DNA of 64,000 nucleotides from Burkholderiales bacterium (lineage in GTDB: Bacteria > Pseudomonadota > Gammaproteobacteria > Burkholderiales > Burkholderiaceae_D), in the NCBI GenBank assembly GCA_016200895.1, contig JACQDX010000124.1:1-64000 (forward strand), read 5' to 3'. Below, piece after piece: positions 27,483 through 31,615 of this stretch; within the stretch, counting starts at the first letter, position 1; each line of letters begins with the position of its first letter. The position numbers and the translations under genes were made by a program. Below the pieces are notes generated by a model. It was not told where the DNA came from, made no database searches, and saw only the letters and a program-made list of their open reading frames with translations.

Positions 27483-29345
27483 ATGCATAAACATCTTGTT
27501 CGCAACTTGTTCGCTGTTGCATTGACCATGCCAAGCTTTGCCTTTGCTGCTCATCCCAGCGAGACGGAAGCAGACCGCTGGAATTTAAATGACATGTATC
27601 AGACCAAGGCTGATTGGGACAAAGATGCGATGACGCTGGAGGTGCAGTTAAAACAGTTTCAAACCTGTAGCGGTCATCTGGGTGACAATATCGCGCGTCT
27701 CAAGACTTGCCTGGACATGAATGCTGACTTGTGGAAGCGCTATGCCCGTCTGTCCAGCTATGCATTTCAGTTCCGCGATCAGGATACTGGCGACAATGCC
27801 GGCATGGACCTGGGGCAGCGCTCGGACATTTTGGGCAGTAAAGTGGAAGAAGCAACGTCTTTCCTCAGGCCAGAAATTTTGAGTATAGGCGCCAAGAAAA
27901 TACAGGCTTTTCAAACCAAAGAAAAAGGTTTGAAAATCTATGCCCATCAACTGGATGATATCTTGCGCTCTGGCCAGCATACCCTGGATAAAAAAGGGGA
28001 AGAAATTGTTGCCACCTTTGGCATGGCAACCAATACGGCCAGCGCAGTGTATTCCACCTTGTCAAATGCTGATATGCCCTGGCCCAAGGTTAAATTATCA
28101 ACAGGTGAAGAAGTACGCATAGATCAGTCCGCCTATACGAAATACCGCGCCGCGCCCAACCGTGCTGACCGCCAACTCGTATTTGATGCATTTTGGGGTA
28201 AGTGGAAAGAATTTGAACGCAGCTATGGCGTTACTTTTTACGAACAGTTAAAACGCGATTCAGCTTATGCCAAGATACGCAATTATCCAGATTCACTGAC
28301 ACAGGCACTGGATAACAACAAGTTACCACGCGAAGTTTACGACACGCTGGTGACGCAAACTCGTGCCAATCTCCCTACCCTGCATCGCTACTTCAAATTG
28401 CGCGCCAAGCTGCTTGGCGTCAAAGACCTTCGTTATTTCGATATCTATCCACCGCTGGTGTCTGGCGATTTCAAATATCCTATTAAGGACGGTATCAAAC
28501 TGATGCTGGAGTCCGTCAAGCCGCTTGGCGATGACTACACCAAGGCAATGGCAAAAGCCACGACTGAACGCTGGATGGATGTCTATCCACGTCCTCGCAA
28601 ACGCTCAGGCGCATATATGAATGGCGCAGTTTATGACGTGCATCCATACCTGCTGTTGAATTACAACGACGACTATGAGTCTGTCTCGACCCTGGGACAT
28701 GAATGGGGTCACGCCATGCATTCCTACCTGGCCAATAAGCATCAACCATTCATCAGCGCTGACTACCCCACCTTCACGGCAGAAATTGCTTCGACGACCA
28801 ACGAAGTCTTCTTGCTCGACCATATGCTGAAGATCGCGAAGAGTGATGATGAGCGTTTGCTATATCTGGGCTCGGCATTGGAAAATCTGCGCGGCACTTT
28901 CTTCCGCCAGGCCATGTTTGCCGATTTTGAGCGTGAAGTACATGCCAAGGTGGATAAAGGTGAATCCTTGACGGGTGAAGCATTGTCGAAAATCTATGGC
29001 GACATCCTGAAAAGCTATCATGGTGATAAAGAAGGCGTCATGAAGATAGACGATACTTATGCCGTAGAATGGGCGTATATTCCCCATTTCTACAATCGCT
29101 TCTATGTATTCCAGTACGCCACTTCCATCGCTGCCGGATCCATGTTTGCAGATGAGATTTTGAAGGGCCAAACTGGTGCCAAAGATAAATACCTGAATAT
29201 CCTGAAAGCTGGCGGTTCTGCTTACCCTTATGAACTGGTCAAGAGCGCAGGTGTTGATCTGGCCTCACCTGCTCCTTATCAGGCAGTGTTCGTGCGCATG
29301 AATAAAATCATGGATCAAATTGAAGCAATACAAGCGAAACGTTAA
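27483..29345 (+). CDS. exported oligoendopeptidase F (M3B family)
   Basis: A 620-aa zinc oligopeptidase. The active site is LGHEWGHAMHSYLAN (HEXXH near residue 405), followed by the third ligand Glu in FTAEIASTTNEVFLL. The N-terminus is a signal peptide (HLVRNLFAVALTMPSFAFAA), so unlike cytosolic PepF this copy should act in the periplasm or outside. PepF enzymes cut peptides of about 7-17 residues. It stands upstream of an S46 dipeptidyl peptidase gene in the same orientation, with a terminator between. Together they suggest stepwise breakdown of imported or environmental peptides. Confidence 0.9.
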   Translation: MHKHLVRNLFAVALTMPSFAFAAHPSETEADRWNLNDMYQTKADWDKDAMTLEVQLKQFQTCSGHLGDNIARLKTCLDMNADLWKRYARLSSYAFQFRDQDTGDNAGMDLGQRSDILGSKVEEATSFLRPEILSIGAKKIQAFQTKEKGLKIYAHQLDDILRSGQHTLDKKGEEIVATFGMATNTASAVYSTLSNADMPWPKVKLSTGEEVRIDQSAYTKYRAAPNRADRQLVFDAFWGKWKEFERSYGVTFYEQLKRDSAYAKIRNYPDSLTQALDNNKLPREVYDTLVTQTRANLPTLHRYFKLRAKLLGVKDLRYFDIYPPLVSGDFKYPIKDGIKLMLESVKPLGDDYTKAMAKATTERWMDVYPRPRKRSGAYMNGAVYDVHPYLLLNYNDDYESVSTLGHEWGHAMHSYLANKHQPFISADYPTFTAEIASTTNEVFLLDHMLKIAKSDDERLLYLGSALENLRGTFFRQAMFADFEREVHAKVDKGESLTGEALSKIYGDILKSYHGDKEGVMKIDDTYAVEWAYIPHFYNRFYVFQYATSIAAGSMFADEILKGQTGAKDKYLNILKAGGSAYPYELVKSAGVDLASPAPYQAVFVRMNKIMDQIEAIQAKR

Positions 29346-29399
29346 AATACCAAGTAGTTCAAACAGGAATTAATAAAATCCCTGGACATGAAAAAACCC

Positions 29400-29435
29400 T
29401 GCCTCTTCCCGTAACAGGGAGAGGCAATTTATTTT
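29400..29435 (+). terminator. intrinsic terminator after the M3 peptidase gene
   Basis: TGCCTCTTCCC (29400-29410) pairs with GGGAGAGGCA (29417-29426), with one bulged base and a 6-nt loop, followed by ATTTATTTT. It ends 27 nt before the S46 peptidase start codon. Confidence 0.75.
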
Positions 29436-29452
29436 CAAGTAATGGAAAAACA

Positions 29453-31615
29453 ATGCAAAAGAAATTCTTATTAGGACTTACGCAAAATTGTCCCAGCAAG
29501 GCGCAGCGACGAAGACAGTACTTTAGTACGGCTAGGAGCTGCAACGCAGCTGGGGCGGTTTTGCGTAAGTCCTACTTATTTCTAAGTCTGGCAATTCCTG
29601 CCCTGTCCTTCGCGGCAGAAGGTATGTGGACCTTGGACAATTTGCCGACCTCCAGATTGCAAGCAGAATACGGCTTCAAGCCCACTACAGAATGGATCAA
29701 GAACACCATGTTAAGCTCGGTCAAGCTACCTGGCTGTTCTGGTTCTTTCGTCTCCAAAGATGGCCTGGTCATGACCAATCATCATTGCGCGTCTGGCTGT
29801 ATAGAACAGTTATCGACAGCCAAACAAAATTATGTAGGAAACGGCTTCCTGGCTAAGAAGCGTGAAGAAGAACAAGTTTGTCCAGCACTGGAATTAAACC
29901 GACTGGAAGACATCAGCGATGTGACAGACGACGTGAAGAAAACCACTGCGGGTCTTGAAGGTGCAGATTTCAAACAGGCACAAAATGCCATCTATGCCAA
30001 ACTGACGTCCGCCTGCGTAGGTGACGACAAGGAAAAAACCCGTTGCGATATCGTCGATCTTTATCATGGTGGCCGCTATCATCTGTATAAATACCATCGC
30101 TATGCCGATACCCGCCTGGTATGGGCACCAGAAAAATCCATCGCTTTTTTTGGTGGCGACCCGGACAATTTCAATTTTCCCCGCTATGACCTCGACATCA
30201 CCATGTTGCGTGTGTACGAGAACGGCAAACCGGCTGAAATCAAAAATTTCTTCCCTTTCAGCAAGACCGGGGCACAAGAAGGTGAACTGACGTTTATTAC
30301 TGGTCACCCTGGCTCCACCCAGCGTCAACTGACTATGGCACAATTGAACAGCTTGCGTGATATTGGCCTTATCGACAACTTGCAACATTTAGCAGAATTG
30401 CGCGGTGTGCTCACGCAATATCGCAAGACCAGCGCAGAAGCAGCGCGCACCGCTGATCACCTGTTATTCAATACAGAAAATAGCTATAAGGCTGGCATTG
30501 GCAGACTGAAAACCCTGCTGGCCCCAGAATTCATCGCCCGCAAGCAAGCAGAAGAAGCTGCCTTGCGCCAGTTTGTTGATTCCAGGCCAGAACTCAAGAC
30601 AAAAGTCAGCGGCGCCTGGGATACCATTGCCAGGGCTCAGGAAAACTACCGTCAGTTACATAGAATCTCCAGCATGACAGAAGGAGGAGCCGCTTTCTCC
30701 AGCGACTATTTCCGCATCGCCCGCAATCTTGTTCGTGCGGCAGATGAAAAAATAAAAAACAATGCTGATCGCTTGCCAGAATTTACCGATACGCGCCTGC
30801 CTGGCGTGCAGCAAATGGTGTTTTCAAAAGCGCCAATTTACCCGGAATTCGAGAAAGTCAAACTGACACACTCCCTGACCAAGATGCGTGAAGACCTGGG
30901 AACCAATCACGCATTCGTCAAGCAGGTATTAGGAAAACTCTCGCCCGATCAACTGACAGAAAAACTGGTCAGCAAAACCCGTCTGGCGGATATTGAATAC
31001 CGCAAAACCTTATGGAATGGCGGCAAGGAGGCCATTGTGCAGTCTGATGACCCTTTCATCAAACTGGCCTTGGCAGTCGACGCTGAATCTCGTAGCGTAC
31101 GCAAGCGCATGGAACAGGAAGTACAGACAGTAGTGCAAAAAAATTCAGAATTGATTGCACAAGCCCGTTTTGCCCAGACCGGCACCAGTGTGTATCCTGA
31201 CGCTACCGGCACCCTGCGCCTGTCTTATGGCGAGGTCAAAGGCTGGCAGTCTGGAGAGAACACCGTCAAACCTTTTACCAATTTTGCAGGGGCATTTGAG
31301 CATGAGACTGGAGCCTATCCATTTGCCTTGCCTGCGTCCTGGCATGTAGCCAAAAGTAAGCTGAATATGCAACAGCACTACAATTTCGTGAGCAATAATG
31401 ACATCATAGGCGGCAATTCTGGCAGTCCCCTCATCAACAAGAATGGTGAAATTGTCGGTCTGGTCTTTGATGGCAACATCCACTCTCTGGGTGGTGCTTT
31501 CTGGTTTGATGAACGCAGCAACCGTAGTGTCGCCGTACACAGTGGCGGCATACTGGAAGCAATGGATAAAATTTACCATGCCGAGGAATTGCTGAAGGAA
31601 TTAAACGGCAGGTAA
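29453..31615 (+). CDS. S46 family dipeptidyl peptidase (DPP7 type) with MITE inside the signal peptide
   Basis: A 720-aa serine peptidase that removes dipeptides from peptide N-termini. The catalytic His is in TNHHCASGC (near 108) and the Ser is in GGNSGSPLINKNGE (near 655). The residue 18 after the Ser, in LVFDGN, is Gly. By family knowledge this marks DPP7-type (hydrophobic/aliphatic P1) rather than DPP11 (Arg, acidic P1). The first six codons and residues from about 43 would join to a textbook signal peptide (MQKKFLFLSLAIPALSFA). A 102-bp inverted-repeat element plus 6-bp duplication now adds 36 codons in frame. A TTG at 29561 inside the element could restart translation at MRKSYLFLSLAIPALSFA. 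Export may thus persist. Confidence 0.88.
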   Translation: MQKKFLLGLTQNCPSKAQRRRQYFSTARSCNAAGAVLRKSYLFLSLAIPALSFAAEGMWTLDNLPTSRLQAEYGFKPTTEWIKNTMLSSVKLPGCSGSFVSKDGLVMTNHHCASGCIEQLSTAKQNYVGNGFLAKKREEEQVCPALELNRLEDISDVTDDVKKTTAGLEGADFKQAQNAIYAKLTSACVGDDKEKTRCDIVDLYHGGRYHLYKYHRYADTRLVWAPEKSIAFFGGDPDNFNFPRYDLDITMLRVYENGKPAEIKNFFPFSKTGAQEGELTFITGHPGSTQRQLTMAQLNSLRDIGLIDNLQHLAELRGVLTQYRKTSAEAARTADHLLFNTENSYKAGIGRLKTLLAPEFIARKQAEEAALRQFVDSRPELKTKVSGAWDTIARAQENYRQLHRISSMTEGGAAFSSDYFRIARNLVRAADEKIKNNADRLPEFTDTRLPGVQQMVFSKAPIYPEFEKVKLTHSLTKMREDLGTNHAFVKQVLGKLSPDQLTEKLVSKTRLADIEYRKTLWNGGKEAIVQSDDPFIKLALAVDAESRSVRKRMEQEVQTVVQKNSELIAQARFAQTGTSVYPDATGTLRLSYGEVKGWQSGENTVKPFTNFAGAFEHETGAYPFALPASWHVAKSKLNMQQHYNFVSNNDIIGGNSGSPLINKNGEIVGLVFDGNIHSLGGAFWFDERSNRSVAVHSGGILEAMDKIYHAEELLKELNGR
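29473..29574. mobile_element. MITE-like element inserted in the S46 peptidase signal-peptide codons
   Basis: The ends are inverted repeats: AGGACTTACGCAAAA at 29473-29487 and its complement at 29559-29573, with further similarity inward (TTGTCCCAGC against CCGCCCCAGC). Inside are two small palindromes (GTAC TTTA GTAC and AGCTGC AAC GCAGCT). The flanks repeat CTTATT (29467-29472 and 29575-29580). Removing the element and one copy restores a normal signal peptide in frame. An alternative reading is a TA target (element 29474-29572), which would shift the frame. The element has no transposase, so mobility would need one in trans. Confidence 0.8.

Follow-up and report, generated by a model that had tools for sequence, protein, structure and literature searches.

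A 103-bp repeat of the MITE type lies in frame within the signal-peptide codons of an S46 dipeptidyl peptidase gene from a bacterium whose genus we judge to be Undibacterium by its closer S46 relatives (U. pigrum, Undibacterium sp. TS12 and U. hunanense). The gene stands in a window of 64,000 nucleotides (contig JACQDX010000124.1 of assembly GCA_016200895.1), for which an earlier sequence-only reading had proposed that a mobile element either became part of the protein's N-terminus or installed a new start. The mobile-element part of that proposal is right, and the new start is possible but disfavoured. In the reading that we prefer, with a probability of about 0.55, the element is a passenger: the native ATG would still be used, and a 54-residue signal peptide would be removed to leave the mature enzyme unchanged. 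The interest of the case lies in a second, independent signal-peptide landing site and in a core shared with the Correia elements of Neisseria.

The insertion point is at bases 15-19 of the S46 gene, in codons 5-7 (Table 1). The element is short, with ends written as TAGGACTTACGC and inverted arms of 26 nt each that are 88% complementary, and it carries no transposase: in its six frames, none exceeds 34 codons. By anatomy it is a MITE, with a Correia core under ends and a duplication that are not those of Correia elements, and it is no protein invader of the kind represented by Rickettsia palindromic elements (RPEs). An Rfam scan of positions 29000-30000 gave one match, which is below the gathering score and outside the element.

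Table 1. Positions, within the window, of the element, the S46 gene and the features around its start.
Feature	Position	Strand	Basis
Hairpin then T-rich stretch, between M3 and S46 genes	29400..29426	+	Terminator scan: 2 sites found, 0.6 expected in shuffles
S46 dipeptidyl peptidase gene	29453..31615	+	ORF; Pfam PF10459 E 7.6e-216, residues 54-718
Native ATG start	29453..29455	+	Context ATGCAAAAGAAA identical in L032-L037
Target-site duplication, left copy CTTAT	29467..29471	+	Exact 5-bp duplications in 51/85 parsed copies
MITE-like element, 103 bp	29472..29574	+	Inverted arms; repeat family in same genome
Left terminal inverted repeat (TAGGACTTACGCAAAA...)	29472..29497	+	Inverted-repeat analysis
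CAG codon where 27/49 same-size copies (S46 copy among the 49) have T = TAG	29504..29506	+	Copy alignment
Right terminal inverted repeat (...TTTTGCGTAAGTCCTA)	29549..29574	+	Inverted-repeat analysis
GGGG and in-frame TTG, candidate new start, in right-hand repeat	29552..29563	+	Sequence; paired in hairpin
Target-site duplication, right copy CTTAT	29575..29579	+	Exact 5-bp duplications in 51/85 parsed copies
Hydrophobic part and apparent cleavage region of signal peptide (LFLSLAIPALSFA), intact	29576..29614	+	By eye

The element belongs to a repeat family of the same genome. A 32-base right-end pattern, allowed up to 3 mismatches, occurs at 76 places (37 forward and 39 reverse; control 0), and a DNA search returned at least 40 copies with 95-100% identity (42 matches, two of them weaker reverse readings of listed copies; the best 40 of 145 candidates were scored). 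We fetched 92 loci of the genome and parsed 85 elements; where a locus yielded none, either it was too close to a contig edge or the search, which allowed 3 mismatches per end, met no two ends at a spacing of 50-320 bp. The parsed elements measure 102-104 bp (49 copies), 111-117 bp (8), 180-198 bp (21) or other lengths (7), and their ends are alike. Their flanking duplications are 5 bp long in 51 copies, 4 bp in one and 3 bp in one, with none of 3 bp or more in the remaining 32, and the duplicated 5-mers are 89% A+T, against 51% for the window. The sequence-only reading had placed a 102-bp element between copies of CTTATT (6 bp); its total of 108 bp stands, and we moved the boundaries to 103 bp and CTTAT because duplications in the family are typically 5 bp and never longer. 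With these arms and duplications, the claim of a MITE-like element with a target duplication inside signal-peptide codons is borne out.

Longer relatives of about 180-198 and 255-275 bp with common ends, at L069, L070, L074 and others, form several size classes. At L082, L083 and L120, repeat ends are found no more than about 150 bases from a terminus of contigs C142, C144 and C47, which looks as though the assembly had broken at the repeat. The search for a parent insertion sequence was narrow, covering the DDE_Tnp_1 family, and none of the eight DDE_Tnp_1 loci in the genome carried a pair of family ends. Only two end pairs in the loci examined were 600-2600 bp apart (L073 and L090), each of them consisting of two separate short elements; likewise, among the matches listed for six relatives, inspection by eye found no end pair with the spacing of an insertion sequence beyond two short elements. 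Searches with the element gave no match in the phage collection and one in the plasmid collection, on a Massilia plasmid.

Relatives preserve the empty site. Eight orthologues with 64-90% identity, found within the genus among 43 genomes searched (G021, G022, G015, G028, G010, G024, G041 and G026), all lack the element and have, by eye, an ordinary signal peptide; partial second matches in G024 stood outside this comparison, and L061-L063, whose printed sequence is the same as that of L034-L036, were counted once. The U. pigrum site reads ATGCAAAAGAAATTCTTATTTCTGAGTCTG, matching the S46 gene minus the element and one CTTAT. The normal signal peptide that had been rebuilt from the letters, by removing the element and one repeat copy, is thus the arrangement found in U. 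pigrum.

The S46 gene has 720 codons, 36 of them from the insertion, and its frame is stop-free through the inverted repeat, in agreement with the earlier claim of an in-frame insertion. Its product scores 719.4 bits with PF10459, for which the cut-off is 22. TNHHC and GNSGSP, which we take to be the catalytic His and Ser motifs of S46 enzymes, are present at positions equal to those in four orthologues, and the downstream part is unaltered, with 664 residues from GMWT onward here and in each of four orthologues. Values of dN/dS against four orthologues are 0.046-0.078, at dS values of 0.81-1.32 that are near saturation (two further orthologues dropped out). Changes specific to the branch of this gene number 78.7 synonymous to 14.3 nonsynonymous, and those on the G021 branch 84 to 14. 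As comparisons among orthologues, these figures show that the gene is constrained; should the insertion be recent, they would reflect the time before it, and so cannot prove that the gene still works.

The open frame has a simple origin. Since 103 bp of element and 5 bp of CTTAT add 108 bp, every 103-bp copy keeps the frame by length, and the S46 frame is open partly because CAG stands in place of TAG. The deciding column reads T in 27, C in 20 and G in 2 of the 49 same-size copies, of which 11 are open in the S46 frame and 37 when the equivalent frame is read on the opposite strand. Among the 48 copies of this size besides that in S46, the closest to it is L002, which differs by a single base and likewise has C, so the open allele probably came from the source copy and was not selected within the gene. 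The mean chance that a coding insertion is open and preserves the frame, taken across copies, phases and orientations, is 0.20; the in-frame outcome is therefore by itself no marvel, and the majority of coding insertions were presumably lost. We considered the element's open frame as a sign of coding selection and rejected this idea on the strength of the TAG-bearing copies and the chance of 0.20.

How the family meets other genes was read from the empty sites. Few copies turned up within recognisable genes. For 27 of the 85 parsed copies (28 rows), the empty site is spanned by an open frame that has a start and 110 codons or more, and 13 of these 27 have the element fewer than 25 codons past a possible start. 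Among those 13 frames, read by eye, S46 alone resembles a true insertion past a natural start; the other real-looking frames (e.g. L008, L027, L069, L072, L096 and L101) have their natural start beyond the element, and the rest resemble chance frames. At L008, L027 and L096 the element lies shortly upstream of what appear by eye to be the starts of secreted or lipoprotein genes, outside the signal peptide. Elsewhere, an EamA transporter gene is broken by a 111-bp member (L073:416-526) with a CTGAA duplication and loss of frame, and a 182-bp member (L109:1167-1348) follows a truncated phosphonate-binding protein gene. Pfam, which recognised the EamA and phosphonate-binding pieces, assigned no family to another six ORFs from flanks or fusions, of which this genome contributed four and other genomes two.

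Few bacterial mobile elements have turned into protein parts; RPEs are the main example, and their case leaves open how proteins tolerate them. According to PMC10969869, RPEs are palindromic repeats that protein-coding genes can harbour in frame, gaining a peptide from them. RPEs are often in frame, whereas the Undibacterium family offers one clear case among 85 parsed copies. On that count, which genes without a Pfam match may escape, we rejected a protein-invading family in the style of the RPEs.

In other genomes we inspected 36 loci among the matches listed, chosen mainly for long open frames (L064-L068, L139-L159 and L172-L181). Most long frames through the element were set aside there as elements that precede a natural start (L064, L139, L140 and L141; by eye) or as unlikely antisense frames. 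One locus holds a second in-frame signal-peptide insertion, in an LpxR gene (PF09982, E 1.2e-42) on contig 19 of G024 (L145:1-943, minus strand) that runs off the contig. This element (L145 801-903) equals the S46 element in length, is flanked by an exact TTTTA duplication and has the opposite orientation relative to its gene; all seven LpxR orthologues displayed by a motif search lack it (11 loci fetched besides L145). The hydrophobic stretch is intact in both cases and directly preceded by Arg-Lys-Ser-Tyr, of which Arg-Lys-Ser comes from the terminal repeat. With loci selected in this way, two cases are no proof of enrichment. They suggest that signal peptides may accept such insertions since they are normally cleaved off and discarded, and two insertions of opposite orientation in unrelated proteins suggest a rule, namely that the discarded part is where in-frame insertions survive.

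For the S46 gene, our preferred reading runs as follows. A non-autonomous MITE-like element, of a family with dozens of copies in the Undibacterium genome, inserted at codons 5-7 and duplicated five AT-rich bases; with 108 bp added and no TAG, the frame survives, and translation from the gene's own ATG would continue. The 36 added residues would lengthen the positively charged n-region into that of a 54-residue signal peptide, with a net charge of +9 over the 41 residues ahead of the hydrophobic stretch by hand count, and signal peptidase would cut at the old site. A working 41-residue n-region is an assumption, and the n, h and c regions are putative, assigned by eye. The signal peptide would be a tolerant landing site since it is discarded, and the element a passenger that brings no regulatory gain.

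Alternatively, the insertion could be harmful: expression or export might be lowered by the hairpin and by the length and charge of the n-region, and the gene would then be a hypomorph or an early pseudogene in this strain. The predicted fold of 29453-29600 is very stable, at -64.8 kcal/mol, and its long hairpin begins 19 nt after the A of the ATG, where it could depress translation or draw RNase III. Two other S46 genes in the same genome, with 32% and 29% identity, might compensate for a loss, and the EamA and phosphonate-binding genes described above are broken with copies in or at them. Yet the 720 codons contain no stop or frameshift, and the branch has no excess of amino-acid changes, although a recent event would look identical. 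On balance we consider harm possible but unlikely.

A further alternative, and the second half of the earlier proposal, is that the right-hand terminal repeat provides a working start, with GGGG at 29552-29555 and TTG at 29561 opening MRKSYLFLSLAIPALSFA. Both motifs are present as had been described, the frame is right, and the resulting short signal peptide looks ordinary. Predicted Shine-Dalgarno pairing is better at the TTG (-5.6 kcal/mol) than at the native ATG (-3.3), and the LpxR gene shares the TTG-CGT-AAG-TCC arrangement, in frame before the hydrophobic part, with -4.0 at the TTG versus -0.4 at the ATG. TTG is, however, a weak start codon, and in the predicted fold of 29346-29760 TTG and GGGG are unpaired at 0.001 or less, that is, more than 99% paired in a transcript from upstream, versus 0.465 unpaired for the native ATG. 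A model transcript starting at 29505 would leave the TTG 0.271 unpaired, but the GGGG just 0.013, and a promoter consensus scan of 29250-29750 found no match within the element; its one match, at 29320-29348, compares with 0.6 expected in shuffles. We favour the native ATG because an upstream transcript would hold both arms, with TTG and GGGG predicted to be paired and the ATG partly accessible, and we regard the new start as quite unlikely.

The terminator-like hairpin between the M3 and S46 genes ends 26 nt upstream of the S46 ATG and raises the question of S46 transcription. A similar GAGAGGCAATTTATTTTC stretch, with the same ATTTATTTTC tail, also precedes the gene in L032-L034 (the hairpin was folded here only).

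Whichever way round it is read, the element finishes with a G-rich tract and then TTG-CGT-AAG-TCC-TA, giving fMet-Arg-Lys-Ser-Tyr in both cases seen. The terminal repeat could on this basis be a portable signal-peptide head, with a hairpin-hidden start that would be freed on cutting of the stem by RNase III, a cleavage reported for Correia transcripts; an element landing in phase immediately ahead of a hydrophobic region would then supply a ready n-region and start, and would make secreted-protein genes RNase III-dependent. We think this very improbable. An assembly error or a chance repeat in place of a true insertion is hardly credible: the assembly is a draft of 151 contigs, with repeat ends near the ends of C142, C144 and C47, but the site is mid-contig, the exact duplication is as long as in 50 other copies, the empty site is matched, and even the nearest same-size copy differs by a base.

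Compared by description only, the element is like MITEAba12, ERIC and Nezha in being short, with inverted ends and many copies. MITEs of that type lack a transposase of their own; the Undibacterium element differs in that the narrow search found no parent insertion sequence with its ends. To the Correia elements of Neisseria (CREE, or nemis) it is similar in being roughly 100 bp long, with inverted ends, in forming a strong RNA hairpin, and in its core. The core at 29497-29548 aligns with that of Correia elements as CAAGGCG...AGACAGTAC...TAGTACGGC.AGG..GCAACGC. With one N. gonorrhoeae copy the element reaches a score of 39 (shuffle maximum 29), and it reaches 39 too with a sequence that we take to be the Correia core alone (shuffle maximum 35); 0 of 1000 shuffles attained the score in either comparison. 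Against one Cupriavidus copy the score is 38 (shuffle maximum 27, 1000 shuffles), and against a Massilia copy 77 (shuffle maximum 27, 1000 shuffles), the latter copy having been found through likeness and so being no independent test. These shuffle tests argue for a conserved core, as similarity and not as proof of common descent.

The sequence taken as the Correia core occurs with 100% identity at 40 or more places in each of two Neisseria gonorrhoeae records (filed as plasmids, 2.17 Mb) and with 83% identity at 5 places in each of two Cupriavidus metallidurans records; it had no match in the phage collection. The terminal repeats differ by eye, with the Undibacterium ends given in Table 1 and TTATAGTGGATTAA in the Neisseria copy, and the duplications are of 5 bp, versus TA for Correia elements in Neisseria. 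PMC2649163 describes CREE of two lengths, 104-108 bp and 153-157 bp, and the binding of their transcripts by RNase III.

The ends of the Neisseria (L183), Cupriavidus (L182) and Massilia (L184) copies differ among themselves as well, the latter two being AGAGGCGCTATCAAAATGA and CGGCTAAGAGCGCCTAACAAAACCGTCA. In betaproteobacteria, these alignments thus place a Correia-like core between ends of at least four kinds; with one copy per genus compared, convergence of cores is possible. One core is seemingly paired with several transposition systems. We found no description of such a core with many ends in the literature, including the available parts of PMC2649163, PMC5039591 and PMC10969869, and no report of the terminal repeat sequence, of an Undibacterium MITE or of an in-frame MITE in a signal peptide. 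The comparison ties a repeat that is abundant in an environmental genus to the Correia core of Neisseria, here with other terminal repeats, and would open that core's origin and function to testing outside pathogens. A peptide query from the element found a match in 26 of 195 genomes, spread over 10 of the 44 genera of the host's family, its own genus included.
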